From: Streptomyces sp. M92
GTDB taxonomy: Bacteria; Actinomycetota; Actinomycetes; Streptomycetales; Streptomycetaceae
Assembly: GCF_028473745.1 (NCBI RefSeq)
Contig: NZ_CP101137.1
Span: 4,464,001 to 4,528,000 of the forward strand
DNA: 64,000 nt
Direction: 5' to 3'
Shown here: piece by piece, positions 27,959 to 41,009 of the stretch
Layout: each line of letters begins with the position of its first letter
Position numbering within the stretch: the first letter of the stretch is position 1
Notes under the pieces: model-generated
What the model saw: the letters and a program-made list of their open reading frames with translations, nothing else
What the model was told of the DNA's origin: nothing
Databases searched by the model: none
Position numbers and translations under genes: made by a program

Positions 27959-30900
27959 GTGCACAGAAGCAGACCCAGAGGCACCCGCACCACGAGGCGT
28001 CCCGCGTTCCGTACCGCCCTCGCCCTGGCCACCGGCCTGATGCTGGCCGTGGGCACCCCGGCGACCGTCGCCGGAGCCCAGCCGGCGGCCGACGCGCCGG
28101 CCGCCGCCGAGGGGCGGTTCCAGCAGGTACCGCTCGCCAAGGGCGAGCCCGAGACGGGCGAGCCGATGTCGCTCGCCGTCCTCCCGAACCGCAGCGTCCT
28201 GCACACCTCGCGCGACGGCACCCTGCGCATCACCGACCAGGGCGGCGTCACCAAGGTCGCCGGCAGGCTCGACGTCTACAGCCACGACGAGGAGGGCCTG
28301 CAGGGCGTAGGTGTAGACCCGGACTTCGAGAACAACCGGGCGATCTACCTCTACTACGCCCCGCCGCTCGACACCCCCGCGGGCGACGCCCCCGAGACCG
28401 GCACCGCCGAGGACTTCGAGAAGTTCGACGGCGTCAACCGCCTCTCCCGCTTCGTCCTCAACCCCAACGGCACGCTGGACATGGCCAGCGAGAAGAAGGT
28501 CCTGGACGTCGCGGCCTCCCGCGGCACCTGCTGCCACGTCGGCGGCGACATCGACTTCGACGCCGAGGGCAACCTCTACCTGTCCACCGGCGACGACACC
28601 AACCCCTTCGCCTCCGACGGCTACACGCCGATCGACGAGCGGGAGAACCGCAACCCGGCCTTCGACGCCCGCCGCAGCTCCGGCAACACCAACGACCTGC
28701 GCGGCAAGATCCTGCGCATCAAGGTCGCCGAGGACGGCTCGTACACGGTCCCGGACGGAAACCTCTTCGCCCCCGGCACCGAGAAGACCCGCCCCGAGAT
28801 CTACGCGATGGGCTTTCGCAACCCGTTCCGGATGAGCGTCGACGACAAGACCGGCACCGTCTACGTCGGTGACTACGGCCCCGACGCCGGCACCGCCGAC
28901 CCGAACCGGGGCCCGGCGGGCCAGGTCGAGTTCGCCAAGGTCACCGAGGCCGCCAACTTCGGCTGGCCGTTCTGCACCGGCGCCAACGACGCCTACGTCG
29001 ACCACGACTTCGCCACCGGTGCTTCCGGCGAGAAGTTCGACTGCGCCGCCCCGAAGAACACCTCGCGGCACAACACCGGTCTGGTCGACCTGCCGCCCGC
29101 CCAGCCCGCCTGGATCCCGTACGACGGCGGCAGCGTCCCCGAGTTCGGCAGCGGCTCCGAGTCCCCGATGGCCGGCCCGGTCTACCGCTACGACCCGGAG
29201 CTGGACTCCTCGGTGAAGTTCCCGGAGGAGTTCGACGGCGACTTCTTCGCGGGCGAGTTCGGCCGCCGCTGGATCAAGCGGATCGAGCAGACCGAAGACG
29301 GACCTGACGGTACGGTCGCGAAGATCAACGACTTCCCGTGGACCGGCACCCAGATCATGGACATGGAGTTCGGCCCCGACGGCGCGCTCTACGTCCTCGA
29401 CTACGGTGTCTCCTGGTTCCAGGGCGACGAGCACTCCGCGCTGTACCGGATCGAGAACGCCGAGGACGGCTTCTCACCGATCGCGGAAGTCAGCGCCGAC
29501 AAGACGTCCGGCGCGGCCGGCCTGAAGGTCGGGTTCACCGCCTCCGCCAAGGACGCCGACTCGCCGGACCTCACCTACAGCTGGGACTTCGGCGACGGCA
29601 CCGAGGGCGAGGGCCTGGCCCCCACCCACAAGTACAAGAAGGTCGGTACCTACACCGCGACCTTCACCGCCGAGGACCCCGAGGGCAACACCGGCAACGC
29701 CAGCGTCCGCGTCGTCGTCGGCAACACCGAGCCCAAGGTGAAGATCGAGGTCCCGGGCAACGGAACCCTGCTGCCCATGGGGGAGCCCGTCCCCTTCAAG
29801 GTGAAGGTCACCGACCCCGAGGAGACGGTCGACTGCTCCAAGGTCAAGGTCGTCTACAGCCTCGGCCACGACTCCCACGCCCACGAGCTGACCAGCGAGA
29901 CGGGCTGTCAGGGCACCCTCAACCCGCCGCCCGGCGACGGCGGCCACGACCCCAACGCCAACATCTACGGCGTCGTCGGCGCGAGCTACACCGACGGCGG
30001 GGCAGGCGGCCAGGAAGCCCTGACCGGCACCGCGCGCACCGTGATCCAGCCGCCGCACCGCCAGGCCGAGCACTTCACCACCCAGTCGGGCATCAGGACG
30101 TACGACAAGTCCGGCGCCAACGGCGGCAAGACCGTCGGCGACATCAACGACGGCGACTGGATCTCCTTCAGCCCCTACAAGTTCGACGGGCAGAAGAAGC
30201 TGACCGTTCGCGCCTCCTCCGGCGGCTCCGGCGGCTTCATCGAGCTGCGCACCGGCTCGCCCACCGGCAAGCTGCACGGCTCCGCGTACATTCCGCCGAC
30301 CGGCAGCTGGGAGACGTTCCAGAACGTCGACGTGCCGCTGCGGTCGCTCCCGGGACGCACCACGGAGATCTACCTGGTCTTCCGCGGCGGGGACGGCGCG
30401 CTCTACGACGTGGACGACTTCGAGTTCTCCAAGGAGCCGTTCAAGAAGGGCAAGAAGGTCCTGGTCTTCTCCAAGACGGCCGGCTTCCGCCACGACTCCA
30501 TCCCGGAGGGCATCGCCGCCCTGAAGGAACTGGGCGCCCCGGCCGGCATCTCGGTCACGGCCACCGAGGAGGCCCGCCAGTTCACCGCGGCCAACCTCGC
30601 CAAGTACGACGCGGTCGCCTTCCTGTCGACGACCGGTGACGTGCTCAACGCCGACCAGCAGAAGGCGTTCGAGAGCTACGTCGAGAACGGCGGCGGCTAC
30701 ATGGGCATCCACGCCGCCGCCGACACCGAGTACGACTGGGAGTTCTACGGCGGCCTGGTCGGCGCCTACTTCGACTCGCACCCGGCCATCCAGAAGGCCA
30801 CCGTGCGCGTCCACGACCACGACCATCCGTCCACCGCGCACCTCGGCGACACCTGGGAGCGCACCGACGAGTGGTACAACTACCGCACCAACCCCCGCGA

Positions 30901-31672
30901 GCAGGCCAAGGTCCTCGCCACCCTCGACGAGACCAGCTACGACGGCGGGAACATGAAGGGCGACCACCCGATCGCCTGGTGCCAGAGCTACGGCGGCGGC
31001 CGCTCCTTCTACACCGGTATGGGCCACACCAAGGAGTCCTACGCCGACGAGGCCTTCCGCGCCCACCTGCTCGGCGGCATGCGGTACGCCACCGGCCAGG
31101 TCAAGGCCGACTGCAAGCCGGCCAAGGGCTACCGGGACATCTTCAACGGCGAGACCCTGGACGGCTGGAAGCAGGGCGGCCCCGGCCAGTTCACCGTCAA
31201 GGACGGCACCATGCGGTCCGAGGGCGGCATGGGCCTGCTCTGGTACCAGGCCAAGGAGCTGGAGTCGTACTCCCTCAAGCTCGACTGGAAGATGCGGGGC
31301 GACGACAACTCCGGGATCTTCGTGGGCTTCCCGGCCTCCGACGACCCCTGGTCCGCGGTGAACAAGGGCTACGAGATCCAGATCGACGCCACCGACGCGC
31401 CCGACCGCACCACGGGCTCCGTCTACTCGTTCAAGTCGGCGAACATCAAGGCCCGTGACCAGGTCCTGCGGCCACCCGGCCAGTGGAACTCCTACGAGAT
31501 CAAGGTCCGCGGCGAACGCCTCCAGGTGTTCCTCAACGGAGTAAAGATCAACGACTTCACCAACAAGGACCCCGAGCGGAGCCTGACCGACGGCTACATC
31601 GGCCTGCAGAACCACGGCGCCGACGACCAGGTCTCCTTCCGCAATATCCAGCTGAAGGAACTGCCCTCCTAG
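27959..31672 (+). CDS. Secreted multidomain protein: sugar dehydrogenase propeller, PKD, CBM6-like, ThuA and DUF1080
   Basis: A 1237-residue exported protein. Residues 1-40 are a signal peptide with an Arg-rich start. About 55-500 is a PQQ-type glucose/sorbosone dehydrogenase propeller (EEGLQGVGVDPDFENN, GFRNPFRMSVD, GPDGALYVLDYG). About 510-590 is a PKD domain (YSWDFGDGT). About 700-820 is a carbohydrate-binding module of the CBM6 type (QAEHFTTQSG, INDGDWISFSP). About 830-1050 is a ThuA domain (VLVFSKTAGFRHDSI, YMGIHAAADTEYDW, FYTGMGHT). About 1055-1237 is DUF1080 (3-keto-disaccharide hydrolase family; FNGETLDGWKQ, DDNSGIFVGF). It may oxidise and cleave bound saccharides outside the cell, feeding the transporter upstream. 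GTG 27959 is the start, with GGAGGG upstream. Confidence 0.9.
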   Translation: MHRSRPRGTRTTRRPAFRTALALATGLMLAVGTPATVAGAQPAADAPAAAEGRFQQVPLAKGEPETGEPMSLAVLPNRSVLHTSRDGTLRITDQGGVTKVAGRLDVYSHDEEGLQGVGVDPDFENNRAIYLYYAPPLDTPAGDAPETGTAEDFEKFDGVNRLSRFVLNPNGTLDMASEKKVLDVAASRGTCCHVGGDIDFDAEGNLYLSTGDDTNPFASDGYTPIDERENRNPAFDARRSSGNTNDLRGKILRIKVAEDGSYTVPDGNLFAPGTEKTRPEIYAMGFRNPFRMSVDDKTGTVYVGDYGPDAGTADPNRGPAGQVEFAKVTEAANFGWPFCTGANDAYVDHDFATGASGEKFDCAAPKNTSRHNTGLVDLPPAQPAWIPYDGGSVPEFGSGSESPMAGPVYRYDPELDSSVKFPEEFDGDFFAGEFGRRWIKRIEQTEDGPDGTVAKINDFPWTGTQIMDMEFGPDGALYVLDYGVSWFQGDEHSALYRIENAEDGFSPIAEVSADKTSGAAGLKVGFTASAKDADSPDLTYSWDFGDGTEGEGLAPTHKYKKVGTYTATFTAEDPEGNTGNASVRVVVGNTEPKVKIEVPGNGTLLPMGEPVPFKVKVTDPEETVDCSKVKVVYSLGHDSHAHELTSETGCQGTLNPPPGDGGHDPNANIYGVVGASYTDGGAGGQEALTGTARTVIQPPHRQAEHFTTQSGIRTYDKSGANGGKTVGDINDGDWISFSPYKFDGQKKLTVRASSGGSGGFIELRTGSPTGKLHGSAYIPPTGSWETFQNVDVPLRSLPGRTTEIYLVFRGGDGALYDVDDFEFSKEPFKKGKKVLVFSKTAGFRHDSIPEGIAALKELGAPAGISVTATEEARQFTAANLAKYDAVAFLSTTGDVLNADQQKAFESYVENGGGYMGIHAAADTEYDWEFYGGLVGAYFDSHPAIQKATVRVHDHDHPSTAHLGDTWERTDEWYNYRTNPREQAKVLATLDETSYDGGNMKGDHPIAWCQSYGGGRSFYTGMGHTKESYADEAFRAHLLGGMRYATGQVKADCKPAKGYRDIFNGETLDGWKQGGPGQFTVKDGTMRSEGGMGLLWYQAKELESYSLKLDWKMRGDDNSGIFVGFPASDDPWSAVNKGYEIQIDATDAPDRTTGSVYSFKSANIKARDQVLRPPGQWNSYEIKVRGERLQVFLNGVKINDFTNKDPERSLTDGYIGLQNHGADDQVSFRNIQLKELPS

Positions 31673-31847: not shown

Positions 31848-33401
31848 ATGTCCGCCGAACCGTCCCCGCCCGTCCCCTCCACGGCCCCGCGCTTCGGCGT
31901 CTGGCTCATCGGGGCGCGCGGCTCCGTGGCCACGACCGCGATCGCGGGCTGTGCCGCCGTCGCCGCCGGGCTCCACCCGCCGACCGGTATGGTCACCGAG
32001 ACCCCGGACTTCGCCGGGTGCGGTCTGCCATCGTTGTCGTCCCTCGTCTTCGGCGGTCACGACACCCTCGACTGCCCGCTGCCCAAGCGTGCCGAGCACC
32101 TCGCCGCCGGCGGTGTGCTGCCGCACGGCCTGCCCTCCGCCGTCCACGCCGAACTCGTCGCCGCCGACCGGGAGATCAGGCCCGGCGGCCCCCTGCCCGG
32201 CGACCTGGACGGCGGGCCCGCCCGCACCGACGACGACTGGATCGACGTGTTCGCGGCCGACATCCGCGACTTCGTCCGCCGTCACGACCTCACGGGCGCC
32301 GTCGTGGTGAACGTCGCCTCCACCGAGCCGGCCCCCACCGACGGCTCGCTGCCGCCCAGCTCCCTCTACGCGGCGGCGGCCCTGCGCGCCGACTGCCCCT
32401 ACGTCAACTTCACCCCCTCCACGGGCCTGCACCACCCGGCGCTGGCCCCGCTCGCCGAGGCCTCGGGCCTGCCGTACGCGGGCCGCGACGGCAAGACCGG
32501 GCAGACCCTGCTGCGCTCGGTGCTGGGCCCGATGTTCGCGCAGCGGGCGCTGACGGTCCGGGCCTGGTCGGGCACGAACCTGCTGGGCGGCGGCGACGGT
32601 GCCGCACTCGCCGACCCGGCGGCGGCCGCCGCGAAGAACGCCGGCAAGGAACGCGTCCTCGCCGACACCCTCGGTGCCGTGCCCGAGGGCGAGGTCCACA
32701 TCGACGACGTGCCCTCGCTCGGCGACTGGAAGACCGCCTGGGACCACATCGCCTTCGACGGCTTCCTCGGCGCCCGCATGATCCTCCAGACCACCTGGCA
32801 GGGCTGCGACTCGGCGCTCGCCGCCCCGCTCGTCCTCGACCTGGCCCGGCTGGCGGCCCGCGCCCGGGAGCGGGGCCTGTCCGGTCCGCTGGGCGGACTG
32901 GGCTTCTACTTCAAGGACCCGGTCGGTGACGGCCCCGCGTCGCTGGCGGGGCAGTACGCCGAGCTGAAACGCTTCGCCGGGCGCCTGCGGGACGGCGCGG
33001 GCGTGCGGGCGGACGACGTCGGCGTCCAGGGGGACGGCTCGGACGTCCGGGGCGCCGCCGGGGCCCTGGGTGCCGCCGGGACCGACGCGTACCGGGACGC
33101 GCCCCGCGATGGTGCGTTCGGGGACGGTGTGTCCGGGGACGGCGCGCCCCGCGATGGTGCGTTCGGGGACGGTGTGTCCGGGGACGGCGCGCCCCGCGAT
33201 GGTGCGTTCGGGGACGGTGTGTCCGGGGACGGCACGCCCCGCGATGGTGCGTTCGGGGACGGTGTGTCCGGGGACGGCACGCCCCGCGACGGCGTGTCCG
33301 GGGACGGTGGGGCCGGCGGCCGGAAGGCCGGAGACCCGGGGGCGGACGCGGGGGCCGGCGGATCCCGGCCGGGCGCCGCCGAGCGCGGGGAGCAGCGATG
33401 A
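31848..33401 (+). CDS. myo-Inositol-1-phosphate synthase family protein with tandem-repeat tail (ebo-type cluster)
   Basis: The first 383 residues are an archaeal/actinobacterial-type inositol-phosphate synthase: NAD-binding start GVWLIGARGSVATTAIAGC, SGTNLLGGGDG, the catalytic-Lys segment GDWKTAWDHI and the core TTWQGCDSALAAPLVLDL, with a further Lys in FYFKDPVG. The classic enzyme cyclises glucose-6-phosphate. Residues 384-517 are an acidic Gly/Asp-rich tail with four and a half 15-residue repeats. The start is ATG 31848 behind AAGGAGG; the stop overlaps the UbiA gene (ATGA). It heads the ebo-type cluster, taking the slot where other ebo clusters have EboD, a dehydroquinate-synthase-like sugar phosphate cyclase. 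The exact product is unknown. Confidence 0.87.
   Translation: MSAEPSPPVPSTAPRFGVWLIGARGSVATTAIAGCAAVAAGLHPPTGMVTETPDFAGCGLPSLSSLVFGGHDTLDCPLPKRAEHLAAGGVLPHGLPSAVHAELVAADREIRPGGPLPGDLDGGPARTDDDWIDVFAADIRDFVRRHDLTGAVVVNVASTEPAPTDGSLPPSSLYAAAALRADCPYVNFTPSTGLHHPALAPLAEASGLPYAGRDGKTGQTLLRSVLGPMFAQRALTVRAWSGTNLLGGGDGAALADPAAAAAKNAGKERVLADTLGAVPEGEVHIDDVPSLGDWKTAWDHIAFDGFLGARMILQTTWQGCDSALAAPLVLDLARLAARARERGLSGPLGGLGFYFKDPVGDGPASLAGQYAELKRFAGRLRDGAGVRADDVGVQGDGSDVRGAAGALGAAGTDAYRDAPRDGAFGDGVSGDGAPRDGAFGDGVSGDGAPRDGAFGDGVSGDGTPRDGAFGDGVSGDGTPRDGVSGDGGAGGRKAGDPGADAGAGGSRPGAAERGEQR
33108..33311 (+). repeat. 45-bp tandem repeat inside the inositol-phosphate synthase gene
   Basis: Four near-identical 45-base units begin at 33108, 33153, 33198 and 33243, with a partial fifth from 33288. 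Each encodes DGAFGDGVSGDGAPR or DGAFGDGVSGDGTPR. Copies differ at a single base in the Ala/Thr codon, so the array is recent and likely to vary in copy number while keeping frame. Confidence 0.95.
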
Positions 33402-34483
33402 GCCGCACGGCAGCCGCGGCGCGGGCCGGGGTCGCGGCGGACCCGTCCGCTCCGGGGCAGCGCCCGACGTCCGGCGCCGTCACCCCGACGGCCTCGGCCG
33501 GCGCCCTGTCCCGCGCTTCCCGCCACCGCCCGGGACACGGCGGCGCCGGCGCCTGGGCCGAGCTGCTCCGCCTGCCCGCCCTGTTCACCGTCCCCGGCGA
33601 CGCCCTGGCCGGCGCGGCGGCGGCCGGTGCGCGGCCGAGCCCCCGGACCTTGCTCGCCATCGGCTCCTCCCTGTGCCTGTACGAGGCCGGCATGGCCCTG
33701 AACGACTGGGCGGACCGCGCCGAGGACGCCGTGGAACGCCCGCACCGCCCCCTGCCGTCCGGCCGCATCCGCCCGCCGGCCGCCCTCGCGGCGGCCGGCG
33801 CCCTCACCGGCGCCGGACTGGCGCTGGCCGCCGGTGCCGGACGCCCCGCGCTCGCGGTGGCCGCGCCCCTGGCGGCGACAGTCTGGGCCTACGACCTCGC
33901 CCTGAAGCGCACTCCCGCCGGACCGGCGGCCATGGCCGCCGCCCGCGGACTGGACCTGCTCCTGGGCGCCGCCGCCACCGGGGGCGGCACCCGCGCCGCA
34001 CTGCCGTCCGCCGCGCTGCTCGGCAGCCACACCCTCGCGGTCACGGCCGTGTCCCGGCGGGAGACGACCGGCGGTTCGGTCCTGGCCCCGCTCGCGGCCC
34101 TGGCGACGACCGGAGCGCTGACCCGGCTGGTCACCGACGGCCGCATCCGACTCCCGGCAGGCCGGCGGGCAGCAGCCGCCCCCGGCCTGCCGGGCCCGAC
34201 CCCGGCCGCCCGGCCGTCCCGGACCACCGGCGCCCTCACCACCGCACTGGCCGCCGCCTACGCCGCCACCGCCGCCCGCCCCTACTTCCACGCCACGCTC
34301 AACCCCTCACCCCCACTCACCCAACGCGCCGTCGGCGGCGGCATCCGGGCCACCGTCCCGCTCCAGGCCGCACTGGCCGCCCGCTCCGGCGCGCCCGTCA
34401 CCTCCCTGCTGGTCGCCGCACTGGCCCCGGCGGGCCGGATGTTCGCGCGAAGGGCCGGCATGAGGAAGGTGAGCATCACGTGA
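33398..34483 (+). CDS. eboC: UbiA-family prenyltransferase EboC
   Basis: A 361-residue membrane prenyltransferase. After a disordered N-terminal 50 residues, the protein has seven to nine hydrophobic helices. The first Mg-diphosphate motif is intact (ALNDWADRAEDAVERPHRPLPSG region, residues about 100-120, with Asn, Asp and Asp), and WAYDLALKRT is the second conserved loop. It would attach an isoprenoid chain to the cluster's small-molecule product within the membrane. Start and stop both overlap neighbours by four bases (ATGA and GTGA), so expression is coupled to the synthase and the TIM-barrel gene. Confidence 0.9.
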   Translation: MSRTAAAARAGVAADPSAPGQRPTSGAVTPTASAGALSRASRHRPGHGGAGAWAELLRLPALFTVPGDALAGAAAAGARPSPRTLLAIGSSLCLYEAGMALNDWADRAEDAVERPHRPLPSGRIRPPAALAAAGALTGAGLALAAGAGRPALAVAAPLAATVWAYDLALKRTPAGPAAMAAARGLDLLLGAAATGGGTRAALPSAALLGSHTLAVTAVSRRETTGGSVLAPLAALATTGALTRLVTDGRIRLPAGRRAAAAPGLPGPTPAARPSRTTGALTTALAAAYAATAARPYFHATLNPSPPLTQRAVGGGIRATVPLQAALAARSGAPVTSLLVAALAPAGRMFARRAGMRKVSIT

Positions 34484-35466
34484 GCACGCACCCCGCTCGA
34501 GGACCGCAGGGGCGGACGGCGCCCGGCCCGCGAACAAACCGGGACGGGGCCGGGGACCCCACGCACGCCCTCCGCTTCGGCTACGGCACCAACGGACTGG
34601 CCGACCTCCGTCTCGACGACGCCCTCGCCCTCCTCGCCGACCTCGGCTACGACGGCGTCGGCCTGACCCTCGACCACATGCACCTCGACCCGCTCGCTCC
34701 CGGCCTGGCCGCCCGCACCCGGCGGGTCGCGCACCGGCTGGCGGAGCTCGGACTCGGCGTCACCGTGGAGACCGGCGCCCGCTACGTCCTCGACCCGCGC
34801 CGCAAGCACGGTCCCTCGCTCCTCGACCCCGACCCCGGGGACCGGGCGCTCCGCACGGACCTGCTGCTGCGAGCCGTGCGCGTCGCCGCCGACCTCGGTG
34901 CGCACGCCGTGCACTGCTTCAGCGGCATCACCCCGCCCGGGACGGACGAGGAGACGGCCTGGAAGCGCCTGGCGGAAGCCCTCACCCCGGTCCTCGCCGC
35001 CGCCGAAGCCGCCGGCGTCCCGCTCGCGGTGGAGCCCGAACCGGGGCACCTCCTGGCCGACCTCGACGGCTTCCACCGGCTGCGGCGCGCCCTCGGTGAC
35101 CCCGAGCCCCTCGGTCTCACCCTCGACATCGGCCACTGCCAGTGCCTCGAACCCCTCTCTCCCGCCGACTGCGTACGCGCCGCCGCTCCCTGGCTGCGGC
35201 ACGTCCAGATCGAGGACATGCGCCGCGGCGTCCACGAACACCTTCCCTTCGGTGACGGCGAGATCGACTTCCCGCCCGTCCTCGAGGCCCTCGCCGCCAC
35301 CGGCTACCAGGGCCTGACCGTCGTCGAACTGCCCCGCCACTCCCACGCGGGCCCCCACTTCGCCGAACGCTCCCTCCCCTTCCTCCACCGGGCCGCCGCC
35401 CCCGCACCCCGCACGAGCCGCTCGGGCGAGCCCGCCGCCACCCACCGAAGGGAGCCACATCCATGA
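34480..35466 (+). CDS. Xylose isomerase-like TIM-barrel protein of the ebo-type cluster
   Basis: A 328-residue sugar phosphate isomerase/epimerase fold. After about 30 disordered residues the barrel begins RFGYGTNGLADLRLDDALALLADLGYDGVGL. Likely metal ligands are Glu in VEPEPGHLL, Asp/His in LDIGHCQCLEP, His/Glu in HVQIEDMRRG and Glu in VVELPRHSH. It starts at GTG 34480 overlapping EboC and ends overlapping EboA by four bases. It is a second TIM barrel in addition to EboE, probably acting on the cyclitol or sugar phosphate intermediate. Reaction unknown. Confidence 0.87.
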   Translation: MSTHPARGPQGRTAPGPRTNRDGAGDPTHALRFGYGTNGLADLRLDDALALLADLGYDGVGLTLDHMHLDPLAPGLAARTRRVAHRLAELGLGVTVETGARYVLDPRRKHGPSLLDPDPGDRALRTDLLLRAVRVAADLGAHAVHCFSGITPPGTDEETAWKRLAEALTPVLAAAEAAGVPLAVEPEPGHLLADLDGFHRLRRALGDPEPLGLTLDIGHCQCLEPLSPADCVRAAAPWLRHVQIEDMRRGVHEHLPFGDGEIDFPPVLEALAATGYQGLTVVELPRHSHAGPHFAERSLPFLHRAAAPAPRTSRSGEPAATHRREPHP

Positions 35467-36215
35467 CGCAGCCACACGCCACCCACGGCACATCACGAAC
35501 CCGGTCCGCGGACGGCCCCCTCGACGAGCGGAACCCCCAGGGCACCACCCTCGCCCACATGTCGCCCGCCCACACCCCGCCCGCCGACCTGCGCGCCGCC
35601 CTCACCGCCGTACTCGACCCAGCCGCCCGCGCCTGGCTGGACCAGGCCCTGGACGAGGCCGCCGCCCACCCCGGCACCCACGGCCCCATCTCGGTGTGGG
35701 AGCTGCGCCTGGCCGAGGCCGGCCGCCGCTGCGGTCCCGCCCACGCGGACGCCGCCCGCGTCCTGGTCCTGCACGCCGCCCGCGCCGGCACCGACGCCCT
35801 GACCCGGGTCTACTCCCAGGGCACCGCCGACGAACGCCGCGCCGTCCTGCACGCCCTGCCGCACCTCGTCCCCGGCCCGGACGCCCTCGCGCTCGTCGAG
35901 GACGCCCTGCGCACCAACGACACCCGGCTGGTCGCCGCCGCACTCGGTCCGTACGCCGCCCGGCACCTCGACGCCCACCAGTGGCGGCACGCCGTGCTCA
36001 AGTGCCTGTTCACCGGCGTCCCCGTCGACCACGTGGCGGACCTCGACCGACGGGCCGCCGCCGACGCGGAACTCGCCCGCATGCTCGCCGACTACGCCGC
36101 CGAACGCACCGCCGCCGGCCGCGCCGTCCCCGAAGACCTCCACCGCGTCCTGGCCCTGACCGAGTCCGAGCCTCCGGCTCCCGGCCCGGTCGACCCCCAC
36201 GGCAAGGAGTCCTGA
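35463..36215 (+). CDS. eboA: EboA-domain protein
   Basis: A 250-residue, mostly helical, probably cytoplasmic protein without recognised catalytic motifs. The central segment RLVAAALGPYAARHLDAHQW and the following VLKCLFTGVPV are what I recognise as the conserved core of EboA-domain proteins, including the Lys-Cys-Leu-Phe step. The first 40 residues are low complexity. The ATG at 35463 has GGGAG in front and overlaps the upstream stop; its own stop shares one base with the EboB start (TGATG). Function is unknown in all organisms; it may be an assembly or carrier factor for the ebo metabolite. Confidence 0.8.
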   Translation: MTQPHATHGTSRTRSADGPLDERNPQGTTLAHMSPAHTPPADLRAALTAVLDPAARAWLDQALDEAAAHPGTHGPISVWELRLAEAGRRCGPAHADAARVLVLHAARAGTDALTRVYSQGTADERRAVLHALPHLVPGPDALALVEDALRTNDTRLVAAALGPYAARHLDAHQWRHAVLKCLFTGVPVDHVADLDRRAAADAELARMLADYAAERTAAGRAVPEDLHRVLALTESEPPAPGPVDPHGKES

Positions 36216-37063
36216 TGCGCATCTTCGACCCCCACATCCACATGACCTCCCGCACCACCGACGACTACGAGGCCATGCACGCCGCCGGTGTCCGCGCCGT
36301 CGTCGAACCCTCCTTCTGGCTCGGCCAGCCCCGCACCTCTCCCGACTCCTTCCGCGACTACTTCGACGCCCTGCTCGGCTGGGAGCCCTTCCGCGCCGCC
36401 CAGTACGGCATCGCCCACCACTGCACGATCGCCCTCAACCCCAAGGAGGCGAACGACCCGCGCTGCGCCCCCGTCCTCGACGAACTGCCCCGCTACCTCG
36501 TCAAGGACCGCGTCGTGGCCGTCGGTGAGATCGGCTACGACTCGATGACCGCCGCCGAGGACACCGCCCTGGCCGCCCAGCTCCAGCTCGCCGCCGACCA
36601 CGGCCTGCCCGCCCTCGTGCACACCCCGCACCGCGACAAGCTCGCCGGCCTGCGCCGCACCCTGGACGCCGTGCGCGAGTCCGCGCTGCCCACGGACCGG
36701 GTGCTGGTCGACCACCTCAACGAGACCACCGTGAAGGAGGCTAAGGACAGCGGCGCCTGGCTCGGCTTCTCCGTCTACCCGGACACCAAGATGGACGAGG
36801 CCCGCATGGTCGCCCTGCTGCGCGAGTACGGCCCGGAACGGGTCCTGGTGAACTCCGCCGCCGACTGGGGCAGGAGCGACCCGCTCAAGACCCGAAAGGT
36901 CGGCGACCTGATGCTCGACGAGGGCTTCACCGAGGACGACGTGGACCGCGTGCTGTGGCGCAATCCCGTCGCCTTCTACGGCCTCAGCGGACGCCTGAGC
37001 CTGGACGTCACCTCGCAGGACGCCACGCACGAGGGCAACTCCATCCTGCGCGGCGGTGAGTGA
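36215..37063 (+). CDS. eboB: TatD-family metal-dependent hydrolase EboB
   Basis: A 282-residue amidohydrolase-superfamily barrel. Metal ligands appear as HxH in FDPHIHM, Glu in AVGEIGYDS, His in VHTPHRD and DHLNE, and a late Asp in NSAADWG. Classical TatD proteins are DNases; within ebo clusters the real substrate is thought to be a small molecule. It begins at ATG 36215 with AAGGAG and is followed three bases after its stop by EboE. Family and cluster membership are secure, the substrate is not. Confidence 0.88.
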   Translation: MRIFDPHIHMTSRTTDDYEAMHAAGVRAVVEPSFWLGQPRTSPDSFRDYFDALLGWEPFRAAQYGIAHHCTIALNPKEANDPRCAPVLDELPRYLVKDRVVAVGEIGYDSMTAAEDTALAAQLQLAADHGLPALVHTPHRDKLAGLRRTLDAVRESALPTDRVLVDHLNETTVKEAKDSGAWLGFSVYPDTKMDEARMVALLREYGPERVLVNSAADWGRSDPLKTRKVGDLMLDEGFTEDDVDRVLWRNPVAFYGLSGRLSLDVTSQDATHEGNSILRGGE

Positions 37064-37066
37064 GCG

Positions 37067-38266
37067 ATGCGCTTCCGGCACCCGGACGGCTCCACCGTCC
37101 ACCTCGCCTACTGCACCAACGTCCACCCCGCCGAGACCCTCGACGGCGTCCTCGCCCAGCTCCGCGACCACTGCGAGCCGGTCCGCCGCCGCCTCGGCCG
37201 CGACCGCCTCGGCATCGGGCTGTGGCTCGCCAGGGACGCCGCCCACGCCCTGGTCACCGACCCCTCCGCGCTGCGCGGCCTGCGCTCCGAACTCGACCGG
37301 CGCGGCCTGGAGGTCGTCACCCTCAACGGCTTCCCCTATGAGGGTTTCGGCGCCGAGAAGGTCAAGTACCGCGTCTACAAGCCGGACTGGGCCGACCCCG
37401 AACGCCTCGAGCACACCACCTCCCTGGCCCGTGTCCTGGCCGGACTGCTGCCCGACGACGTCACGGACGGCTCCCTCTCCACCCTGCCGCTCGCCTGGCG
37501 CACCGCCTACGACGAGACCCGTGCCGACAAGGCCCGCGCCGCCCTGGTCACCCTCGCCGAACGCCTCGACGCCCTCCAGGATCTGACCGGCCGCTCCATC
37601 CGCGTCGGCCTGGAACCCGAACCCGGCTGTGTCGTCGAGACCACCCGCGACGCCATCGCCCCGCTGACCGCGATCGCCCACGACCGCATCGGCATCTGCG
37701 TCGACACCTGCCACCTCGCCACCTCCTTCGAAGACCCGCGCACCGCCCTGGACGCGCTGACCGCGGCCCGCGTCCCCGTGGTCAAGTCCCAGCTCTCCGC
37801 CGCCCTGCACGCCGAACACCCCTCCCGTCCCGAAGTACGCGACGCCCTCGCAGCCTTCGCCGAACCCCGCTTCCTGCACCAGACCCGCACCGTCACCCCG
37901 ACGGACCCCGCCGCCACGGCGGCCACGGCCGGCTTGCGCGGCACCGACGACCTCGACGAGGCCCTGGCCGACGACAGCCCGCTGCCCGCCACCGCGCCCT
38001 GGCGCGCCCACTTCCACGTCCCCCTGCACGCGGCGCCCGCCGCGCCCCTCACCTCCACCCTGTCCGTGCTCAAGGCCGCGCTGACCCGCCTCGTCGGCGG
38101 CCCGCACCCGCTCACCCGCCACCTGGAGGTCGAGACCTACACCTGGCAGGCCCTCCCGCCCGAGCTGCGGCCCCGCGCCCGCGCCCAGCTCACCGACGGC
38201 ATCGCCGCCGAGCTCACCCTCGCCCGCGACCTGCTGACCGACCTCGGCCTCAAGGAACTGCCATGA
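37067..38266 (+). CDS. eboE: EboE, TIM-barrel metabolite traffic protein
   Basis: A 399-residue xylose isomerase-like protein, longer than ordinary isomerases. Its conserved N-terminus (HLAYCTNVHPAETLDGVL) and GFPYEGFGAEKVKYRVYKPDW segment are characteristic of EboE. Barrel metal ligands are seen in LEPEPGCVVE (Glu), CVDTCHLATSFED (Asp, His) and VVKSQLSAAL, and the C-terminal HLEVETYTW adds Glu. In cyanobacteria ebo genes are needed to move a pigment precursor to the periplasm, hence the traffic name; the chemistry is not known. The start is ATG 37067; the stop overlaps EboF by four bases. Confidence 0.9.
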   Translation: MRFRHPDGSTVHLAYCTNVHPAETLDGVLAQLRDHCEPVRRRLGRDRLGIGLWLARDAAHALVTDPSALRGLRSELDRRGLEVVTLNGFPYEGFGAEKVKYRVYKPDWADPERLEHTTSLARVLAGLLPDDVTDGSLSTLPLAWRTAYDETRADKARAALVTLAERLDALQDLTGRSIRVGLEPEPGCVVETTRDAIAPLTAIAHDRIGICVDTCHLATSFEDPRTALDALTAARVPVVKSQLSAALHAEHPSRPEVRDALAAFAEPRFLHQTRTVTPTDPAATAATAGLRGTDDLDEALADDSPLPATAPWRAHFHVPLHAAPAAPLTSTLSVLKAALTRLVGGPHPLTRHLEVETYTWQALPPELRPRARAQLTDGIAAELTLARDLLTDLGLKELP

Positions 38267-39687
38267 CCTCCACCACCTCCACCACCTCCTCCGGCACACC
38301 GGCACCCTCCGGGCAACCGACCCCTCTCCTCGTCCTCGACGTCGTCGGCCTCACCCCCCGTCTCCTCGACCACATGCCCCACCTCAAGGCGCTCGGCCAG
38401 TCCGGCTCCCGGGCCCCGCTCGGCACCGTCCTGCCCGCCGTGACCTGCGCCGCCCAGTCCACCTTCCTCACCGGAACCCGCCCTTCCCAGCACGGCATCG
38501 TCGGCAACGGCTGGTACTTCCGCGAACTCGGCGACGTCCTGCTGTGGCGCCAGCACAACGGACTCGTCGCCGGCGACAAACTCTGGGACGCCGCCCGCCG
38601 CGCCCACCCCGGCTACACCGTCGCCAACATCTGCTGGTGGTACGCCATGGGCGCCGACACCGACATCACCGTCACCCCCCGTCCCGTCTACTACGCCGAC
38701 GGCCGCAAGGAACCCGACTGCTACACCCGCCCTGCGGCCCTGCACGACGAACTCACGGAAAAACTCGGCACCTTCCCCCTCTTCCACTTCTGGGGACCCG
38801 GCGCGGACCTGGTCTCCAGCCAGTGGATCATCGACGCCACCCGCCACATCATGGCGACCCGCCACCCCGACCTGACGCTCTGCTACCTCCCTCACCTCGA
38901 CTACGACCTGCAGCGCTTCGGCCCCGACGACCCGCGCTCCCTGAAGGCGGCGGCCGACCTGGACGCCGCCCTGGCCCCCCTCCTCGACGACGCCCGCGCC
39001 GAGGGGCGCACCGTCGTCGCACTGTCCGAGTACGGCATCACCCCCGTCAGCCGGCCCGTGGACATCAACCGCGCCCTGCGCCGCGCCGGACTGCTCGAGG
39101 TGCACACCCAGGACGGCATGGAGTACCTCGACCCGATGGCCTCCCGCGCCTTCGCGGTCGCCGACCACCAGATCGCCCACGTGTACGTCCGGCGCCCCGA
39201 GGACCTGGACGCCACCCGGGCGGCCCTCGACGGGCTGCCGGGCATCGAGCAACTCCTCGACGACGAGGGCAAGAAGGCCCACGACCTCGACCACCCCCGC
39301 TCCGGCGAACTCGTCGCCGTCGCGGAGCCCGACGCCTGGTTCACGTACTACTACTGGCTCGACGACGACCGAGCGCCCGACTTCGCGCAACTCGTCGAGA
39401 TCCACCGCAAACCCGGCTACGACCCGGTCGAGCTGTTCATGGATCCGCTCGACCCCTACGTCAAGGTCAAGGCGGCAACCGCTCTGGCCCGCAAGAAGCT
39501 CGGCATGCGCTACCGCATGGCGGTCGTGCCCCTGGACGCCTCACCCATTCGAGGCAGCCACGGCCGCCTCCCAGCGAGCGACGACGACGGTCCGCTCCTC
39601 ATCTGCTCCACCCCCCGCGCTGTCGGAGACCGCGTCGCGGCCACCGACGTGAAACAACTCCTGCTCCGGCTGGCCGGACTCGGCTGA
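38263..39687 (+). CDS. eboF: EboF, alkaline phosphatase-superfamily nucleotide pyrophosphatase/phosphodiesterase
   Basis: A 474-residue NPP-type phosphohydrolase. LLVLDVVGL gives the first metal Asp and AVTCAAQSTFLTGTRPSQHG the nucleophilic Thr. LPHLDYDLQRFGP supplies Asp and His ligands, and HDLDHPRSGEL a late His. The usual SDHG metal pair is changed to SEYG in VALSEYGITPV. No signal peptide is evident; the first 20 residues are Ser/Thr-rich. It would hydrolyse a phosphodiester or pyrophosphate in the ebo product or its prenyl-diphosphate precursor. ATG 38263 overlaps the EboE stop; it is the last gene of the coupled cluster. Confidence 0.88.
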   Translation: MTSTTSTTSSGTPAPSGQPTPLLVLDVVGLTPRLLDHMPHLKALGQSGSRAPLGTVLPAVTCAAQSTFLTGTRPSQHGIVGNGWYFRELGDVLLWRQHNGLVAGDKLWDAARRAHPGYTVANICWWYAMGADTDITVTPRPVYYADGRKEPDCYTRPAALHDELTEKLGTFPLFHFWGPGADLVSSQWIIDATRHIMATRHPDLTLCYLPHLDYDLQRFGPDDPRSLKAAADLDAALAPLLDDARAEGRTVVALSEYGITPVSRPVDINRALRRAGLLEVHTQDGMEYLDPMASRAFAVADHQIAHVYVRRPEDLDATRAALDGLPGIEQLLDDEGKKAHDLDHPRSGELVAVAEPDAWFTYYYWLDDDRAPDFAQLVEIHRKPGYDPVELFMDPLDPYVKVKAATALARKKLGMRYRMAVVPLDASPIRGSHGRLPASDDDGPLLICSTPRAVGDRVAATDVKQLLLRLAGLG

Positions 39688-39800: not shown

Positions 39801-41009
39801 GTGACCCTGTTCTCAGACCCCGCCCGCACCGGCGCCACCGCGGACCCGTCCGCCGACGGCCCGGACGAGGGCCTGCGCCGCACCCTCGGAGTGGGCCGGC
39901 GCCGCTTCCTCAGCACCTGCACCGCCGTAGCCGCCGGGGCGGTCGCGGCGCCCGTATTCGGCGCCGCACCGGCCCTGGCGCACGACCGGGACAGAGACCA
40001 CGACCACGACCGGGACCACGGACGCGGACACGTACTCGTCCCGGCGGACAAGCGCGGCATCATCCTCTACACGGTCCGCGACGCGACCGGCCGCGACCCC
40101 CTCGCCACCCACCTGCCCTCCGGCTTCCGCGAGGTGTTCAAGCAGCTCTCCCGCCACGGCTACCGCCAGGTGGAGTTCGCCGGCTACCGCCAGCACGCCA
40201 ACGCCCCCGGCGGCGCCAGTCTGGAATCCGTCGAGGGCGCCAGGCTGCTCCGCCGCTGGCTCGACGACTACGGGCTGCGCGCCCAGGGCAACCACGGCTT
40301 CATACCGCCCTCCTGGCCGCTCACCACGGCGGACAAGGACACCTTCAAGAAGCACCTGGAGATCGCGAACATCATCGGCATGGACCACATGGGCACCGGT
40401 GGCGACCCCACGGGCAGCTCCTACCGCGCCGACTGGGACGTCGCCGCCGACAAGTGGAACGCGCTCGGTGAGATAGCCCGCCGTGAGGGCATCAAGCTCT
40501 ACACCCACAACCACGACAGCGCCTACGGCTTCCTGCTCGACGGCGGCCCGCTGGACGACCAGGGCCGGCCGACCCGCAGCTCGGGCATCCGCAAGCTCGA
40601 GTACTTCCTGAAGGTCACCGACCCGAGGCTGGTCTGGCTGGAGATGGACATCTTCTGGGCGCACGTCGCCCAGTACAAGTTCCACACCTACACCGCCCAC
40701 GACGGCTCGACCCGGAGGAACGTCTTCGACCCGGCCGGTCTCGTCGCCCGCCACAACAGGCGCTACCCGCTGTTCCACGCCAAGGACGGCGTCGTCAGCA
40801 CGACCAACGGCATGGGCTACGACATGGTGCCCTTCGGGACCGGCGTCATCGACTACACGACGTTCTTCTCGCGGGTCGGACAGCGGAACTACCACAACCC
40901 GATGGTCGAGGACGACAACTCCCCGAGCGCCACCGACCCGGCGCAGTCACTGCGCGAAGCCAAGATCAGCTACGACAACCTGGCGGCCCTGCGCAGGCGT
41001 TGCCGCTGA
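39801..41009 (+). CDS. Tat-exported sugar phosphate isomerase/epimerase-like protein
   Basis: A 402-residue protein beginning at GTG 39801. A Tat signal (GVGRRRFLSTCTAVAAGAVAA) ends near APALA, followed by a striking His/Asp/Arg-rich linker (DHDHDRDHGRGH). The rest is a xylose isomerase-like TIM barrel: YRQVEFAGYRQH, THNHDSAYGF, WLEMDIFWAH and LFHAKDG provide the expected Glu, His, Asp and Lys-type ligands. Export through Tat means it folds with its metal in the cytoplasm. It lies 113 bp after EboF on the same strand and before a strong terminator, so it may share the transcript. It may act on an exported keto-sugar. Confidence 0.87.
   Translation: MTLFSDPARTGATADPSADGPDEGLRRTLGVGRRRFLSTCTAVAAGAVAAPVFGAAPALAHDRDRDHDHDRDHGRGHVLVPADKRGIILYTVRDATGRDPLATHLPSGFREVFKQLSRHGYRQVEFAGYRQHANAPGGASLESVEGARLLRRWLDDYGLRAQGNHGFIPPSWPLTTADKDTFKKHLEIANIIGMDHMGTGGDPTGSSYRADWDVAADKWNALGEIARREGIKLYTHNHDSAYGFLLDGGPLDDQGRPTRSSGIRKLEYFLKVTDPRLVWLEMDIFWAHVAQYKFHTYTAHDGSTRRNVFDPAGLVARHNRRYPLFHAKDGVVSTTNGMGYDMVPFGTGVIDYTTFFSRVGQRNYHNPMVEDDNSPSATDPAQSLREAKISYDNLAALRRRCR

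Follow-up and report, generated by a model that had tools for sequence, protein, structure and literature searches.

The canonical ebo cluster, eboABCDEF, has been described in cyanobacteria, Bacteroidota and eustigmatophyte plastids (PMC5133447, PMC6282210). Ever since its first definition its metabolite has eluded identification, and for the substrate of EboD, the sugar phosphate cyclase that it normally carries, there is only a guess, a heptose-derived cyclitol being proposed for this enzyme (PMC5133447) and a lipid carrier for the Nostoc cluster as a whole (PMC6282210). As regards Actinobacteria, PMC5133447 speaks only of an EboA fused to a xylose-isomerase-like domain, while PMC9235831 aligns loci from Saccharomonospora and makes no mention of inositol. 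In Streptomyces coelicolor, SCO3243 and SCO3242 have been listed with the CDA cluster as a myo-inositol phosphate synthase and a putative transferase (PMC3610822). Our literature search found no paper on an actinobacterial ebo cluster with an inositol-phosphate-synthase-like cyclase (hereafter INO). According to the literature found, this INO-type cluster is a widespread and previously undescribed form of ebo.

The INO-type operon and its neighbours

The window analysed here is a stretch of 64,000 nucleotides from the 7.79-Mb genome of Streptomyces sp. M92. An initial annotation of this DNA had recognised a seven-gene operon encoding INO, a UbiA prenyltransferase, a TIM barrel, EboA, TatD, EboE and an NPP-type phosphodiesterase, and both this content and its position (31848-39687, plus strand) were re-confirmed (Table 1). 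The genes had been said to overlap by 4 bases or 1 base throughout. This is correct for five junctions (4 bases at INO/UbiA, UbiA/TIM, TIM/EboA and EboE/NPP; 1 base at EboA/TatD), whereas TatD and EboE are separated by a 3-base gap. A chance origin of the grouping is excluded, since the same order (INO-UbiA-TIM-EboA-TatD-EboE-NPP) recurs in nearly all actinobacterial EboE clusters that we fetched, from some 14 families.

Table 1. Features of the INO-type operon and its two neighbours (positions in the window)
Feature	Position	Strand	Evidence
Large apparently secreted protein, GSDH propeller + PKD + CBM6 + ThuA + 3-keto-disaccharide hydrolase (upstream neighbour)	27959..31672	+	Pfam
INO, inositol-phosphate-synthase-like cyclase, archaeal Ino1 type	31848..33401	+	Pfam PF07994 and PF01658 (Ino1 domains, 117 and 101 bits); PDB sequence and fold matches; catalytic residues
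UbiA prenyltransferase, SCO3242 family, EboC-related	33398..34483	+	NF045897, 389 bits (cut-off 260); motifs common with EboC
TIM, xylose-isomerase-like barrel, INO companion	34480..35466	+	PF01261, 147 bits
EboA	35463..36215	+	NF035938, 165 bits (cut-off 50)
TatD-family hydrolase, EboB position	36215..37063	+	PF01026, 49.5 bits
EboE	37067..38266	+	NF035939, 424 bits (cut-off 250)
NPP-type phosphodiesterase, EboF position	38263..39687	+	PF01663 (Phosphodiest), 237.5 bits
Xylose-isomerase-like TIM barrel, Tat-like N-terminus (RRRFLSTC) (downstream neighbour)	39801..41009	+	PF01261, 82 bits

Profile searches upheld the assignment to the ebo families in part. EboA and EboE, the latter present as a single copy in the genome, score above the curated NCBIfam cut-offs, whereas the prenyltransferase falls below that of the EboC equivalog (NF035940, 115 bits against 250), which comes second to the SCO3242 family. 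The UbiA proteins of INO-type and EboD-type clusters have in common a first Asp-rich motif, NDxxDxxxDxxERPxRPxPSG, and many of both types carry SRxExxG in the second motif region. The TatD protein scores above the cut-off of a Pfam family model that is not specific to EboB. The TIM barrel of the cluster displays a weak kinship to hydroxypyruvate isomerase, IolO and IolE. As for EboA, its predicted structure is all-helical and confident (pLDDT 89), and a fold search in the PDB returned zero significant relatives.

The upstream neighbour is a single protein of 1237 residues, conserved beside the cluster and likely to be an extracellular 3-keto-sugar enzyme. GSDH-like neighbours are found at 29 of 37 Streptomyces INO loci, 22 of 51 other INO loci and 13 of 62 EboD loci, and relatives of the downstream Tat-like barrel at 30 of 37, 14 of 51 and 1 of 62, respectively. 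These flanking proteins may be what the pathway serves outside the cytoplasm. In a cluster carried by a Streptomyces plasmid, the gene directly upstream of INO (L183:3026-4225) is annotated as a member of the ScyD/ScyE family, a name borne by proteins of the scytonemin cluster.

The INO enzyme and the absence of EboD

Both by sequence (~35% identity) and by predicted fold (TM 0.84-0.86), the best PDB relative of INO is the myo-inositol-1-phosphate synthase (MIPS) Ino1 of Archaeoglobus fulgidus (1u1i). Six MIPS positions, D225, K274, K278, K306, D332 and K367, which we take from established MIPS work to be the catalytic residues, are present in the INO of the window, and each is found in 89 or 90 of 90 aligned INO sequences, the remainder being an undetermined residue. 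K278, K367 and N255, all conserved in INO, are the residues named in the PDB titles of A. fulgidus mutant structures (K278A, K367A and N255A). As INO retains these residues and has the Archaeoglobus enzyme as its nearest relative in sequence and predicted fold, it is expected to carry out MIPS chemistry. Alternatively, INO could be a MIPS paralogue with altered chemistry, similar to Ari2 (aristeromycin), and yield a cyclitol phosphate with a five-membered ring or some other unusual structure. Ari2 is indeed a relative in sequence and fold, and some INO positions differ from classic MIPS, such as that of A. fulgidus D259, which is a glycine in 89 of 90 INO sequences. However, the retention of all catalytic residues and the far greater proximity of true MIPS (TM 0.85, compared with ~20% identity and a TM of 0.64-0.68 for Ari2) make such a shift in chemistry unlikely.

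The INO of the window also carries a strain-specific C-terminal tail of ~130 residues starting at about residue 387, much of which is encoded by a 45-base tandem repeat (33098-33316; 4.9 copies, 95% matches). In comparison, 15 sampled relatives terminate at 380-435 residues.

The initial annotation had left room for INO being the only housekeeping Ino1 of the organism. The genome holds a true mycothiol Ino1 at C1:1718684 (735 bits with the equivalog TIGR03450, for which INO reaches 31 bits against a cut-off of 638), and INO is therefore not the housekeeping enzyme. Given the ordinary MIPS fold and active site of INO, it could still be argued that it is simply carried along in the operon and, rather than supplying the Ebo enzymes, adds to the free inositol available for mycothiol, phosphatidylinositol or an osmolyte. 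This is hard to reconcile with a dedicated mycothiol Ino1 in the same genome, with the near absence of INO from genomes devoid of EboE (see below), and with a gene that overlaps UbiA by 4 bases and stands first in the operon across many families; we thus regard a mere pool function as improbable.

EboD had been reported missing from the cluster, which we confirm and extend to the whole genome. A genome-wide DHQ_synthase search returned only AroB (146 bits) and, below the threshold, a dehydrogenase (21.7 bits) that adjoins a CDP-alcohol phosphotransferase-like gene. In the same vein, an EboD-specific profile found only AroB (143 bits) in the host genome. Three genomes that do have an EboD cluster score 538-550 bits with this profile, whereas no score exceeds 186 bits across 48 further genomes, the host among them. 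The eventuality of an EboD encoded elsewhere in the genome, also raised initially, is thus not borne out.

Distribution and probable exchange of the two cyclases

We fetched some 100 loci from actinobacteria and 80 named loci, most of them from other phyla, typed each by tblastn and counted those in which EboE is accompanied by two or more of EboA, TatD and NPP (n = 162). Among these, 88 carry INO, 62 carry EboD, 12 carry neither and none carries both. INO is the usual form in actinobacteria, where a single EboD locus was found (L132); in the EboE tree, this locus groups with clusters from Deinococcus, Chloroflexota and Acidobacteriota. An extra TIM barrel accompanies INO in 84 of 88 loci and EboD in 0 of 62, and the unit that replaces EboD therefore looks like INO together with this barrel. 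The initial proposal of INO standing in for EboD is well supported, with the amendments that the replacing unit seems to include this barrel and that the cluster is the standard actinobacterial form of ebo and not an oddity of one strain.

EboE is present in 270 of 394 sampled Streptomyces genomes; sampling at the level of the class found it in 97 of 395 genomes, and at that of the phylum in 18 of 397. INO is absent from 59 of 61 Streptomyces genomes negative for EboE; the two exceptions are an INO beside an NPP fragment, which is a remnant (G587), and a cluster that hits a contig end (G527). Conversely, INO is missing from seven second clusters, which make up a single clade in the EboE tree, and six of the seven genomes have INO elsewhere. 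The seventh (G461), which harbours the INO-less cluster L141, has no INO anywhere. Among the genes found upstream of the seven INO-less second clusters, where a cyclase was sought, none is cyclase-like. The 12 clusters with neither cyclase, including the one in G461, count against a replacement of EboD by INO.

Besides, several features of these loci deserve mention. Three of the seven INO-less clusters (L142, L171 and L174) have a FAD-dependent oxidoreductase gene immediately upstream of UbiA and, farther upstream, a gene that resembles an inositol monophosphatase when its sequence is judged by eye. A further DHQS-like cyclase of full length (158 bits) is encoded in G461, far from L141. Full-length EboE genes with the other ebo genes absent nearby occur at L098, L116, L119, L129 and L131.

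Gemmatimonadota clusters carry one cyclase or the other. Gemmatirosa (L187, L286) and a second genome (G1197, L285) display the arrangement TatD-NPP-UbiA-INO-TIM with EboE, whereas a third genome (L189, L287) has EboD with EboE, UbiA and NPP. Between Gemmatirosa and L189, identity reaches 75% for NPP, 62% for UbiA and 61% for EboE. In the UbiA tree, the proteins of Gemmatirosa and L189 are sisters with a support of 100, and the EboD profile found no EboD elsewhere in the Gemmatirosa genome (G1206). Since NPP, UbiA and EboE are close kin while the cyclase differs, the cyclase seems to have been exchanged, in one direction or the other, at least once inside an otherwise conserved cluster. Caution is called for, as L189 is a contig of only 4.6 kb and the EboE of G1197 is split over two frames.

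A competing explanation is that INO-type clusters belong to a different pathway built on a shared processing and transport chassis (EboA/B/E/F and UbiA), in which INO does not replace EboD and both the head group and the cargo are others. The prenyltransferase of a distinct subfamily (SCO3242, under the EboC cut-off), the added TIM barrel, and the differing flanks, with ThuA/3-keto-disaccharide hydrolase neighbours mainly at INO loci, all speak in its favour, as does the EboE tree, in which the INO and EboD types are split by a long, fully supported branch. In addition, EboD-type and MIPS rings would differ in size (C7 versus C6); this is established chemistry, although for EboD itself it is a published guess. 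On the other hand, GSDH neighbours occur at both cluster types, and the close kinship of UbiA, NPP and EboE across the two cyclases in Gemmatimonadota suggests that either one is acceptable to the downstream enzymes. We consider a different pathway as a serious contender, somewhat short of even odds; it overlaps with the replacement reading, and the two estimates are not exclusive.

A point against replacement is that the mutual exclusion of INO and EboD is largely one old event, the types being mostly split by phylum. The Gemmatirosa INO cluster is drawn inside the EboD group in the EboE tree, but a single grouping of the INO clusters is not rejected by AU tests on a subset (p 0.78 for EboE and 0.24 for NPP). 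As one INO grouping is allowed, we do not claim any count of independent switches.

Proposed role and relation to known systems

We favour the view, with a probability of about 0.72, that in the actinobacterial form of ebo the NAD-dependent INO, a cyclase unrelated to EboD, supplies, with the extra TIM barrel, the cyclitol head group in the place of EboD, as a functional replacement of this step. This view is well supported by the lack of any co-occurrence in 162 loci, the absence of EboD from the 48 genomes searched outside the three of EboD type, the way INO tracks EboE in Streptomyces, and the related Gemmatimonadota clusters with either cyclase. INO would act on glucose 6-phosphate or a closely related sugar phosphate to give an inositol phosphate, which the TIM barrel may isomerise, epimerise or dehydrate. 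The SCO3242/EboC-type UbiA would then, at the membrane, prenylate the inositol phosphate or a derivative of it, and EboA, EboB, EboE and EboF might process or release the prenylated product. By analogy with the proposal for Nostoc, the cell would thereby obtain a prenylated cyclitol lipid with which to transport or handle a small molecule beyond the cytoplasm. Any exact structure, such as the prenylated, phosphorylated cyclitol put forward initially, deserves considerably less confidence, the substrate of the prenyltransferase and the retention of the phosphate being predicted features. That the only EboC-type enzymes assayed farnesylated quinolines (PMC9235831) counts against a cyclitol product.

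More speculatively, and less likely than not, the ebo pathway could make a family of prenylated cyclitol lipids with an interchangeable head group, which EboD would provide in most phyla, whereas actinobacteria, haloarchaea and some Gemmatimonadota would use INO with the TIM barrel. Such lipids would serve extracytoplasmic chemistry, for instance that of the adjoining secreted GSDH/ThuA/3-keto-sugar enzymes. If INO does the job of EboD, the actinobacterial head group becomes predictable, because MIPS chemistry is known, and could be traced by feeding labelled inositol in tractable hosts, among whose sampled species roughly two thirds carry the cluster. In that case, light would also be shed on how the pathway works in general, from a cyanobacterial sunscreen and nematode repellence to archaea.

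Two haloarchaeal plasmids (Halobaculum, L276, and Halocatena, L277) bear a cluster with INO, TatD, NPP, UbiA and TIM homologous to those of the window, arranged as TIM-UbiA-TIM-TatD divergent from INO-NPP. The Halobaculum INO is 50% identical to that of Gemmatirosa and 46% to that of the window; its TatD and NPP are 42-46% and 37-38% identical to their ebo relatives. The haloarchaeal UbiA scores 178 with the EboC model and 170 with the SCO3242 model, below both cut-offs. Unlike in the window, transcription is divergent and neither EboA nor a true EboE is present in these plasmid clusters, which are therefore related but not ebo. Ino1-like genes of Hymenobacter (L278) and Roseomonas (L279) lie in another type of cluster, with YcaO, Gfo/Idh/MocA and sugar isomerase genes.

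The SCO3243/SCO3242 pair of S. coelicolor, compared here by published annotation, resembles INO and UbiA in that annotation, and NCBIfam names the UbiA family after SCO3242; in PMC3610822, it was not recognised as part of an ebo-type cluster. Archaeal-type MIPS, as exemplified by A. fulgidus Ino1, resembles INO in fold, cofactor domain and the six catalytic residues, but INO, known here from sequence and model, sits in a dedicated ebo-type operon rather than serving general inositol supply. Finally, the window shares with canonical eboABCDEF the grouping in one operon of EboA, TatD (EboB), a UbiA with EboC motifs, EboE and NPP (EboF). It differs in that EboD gives way to an inositol-phosphate synthase with an additional TIM barrel, in that its UbiA is of the SCO3242 family, and in the fixed order INO-UbiA-TIM-A-B-E-F.
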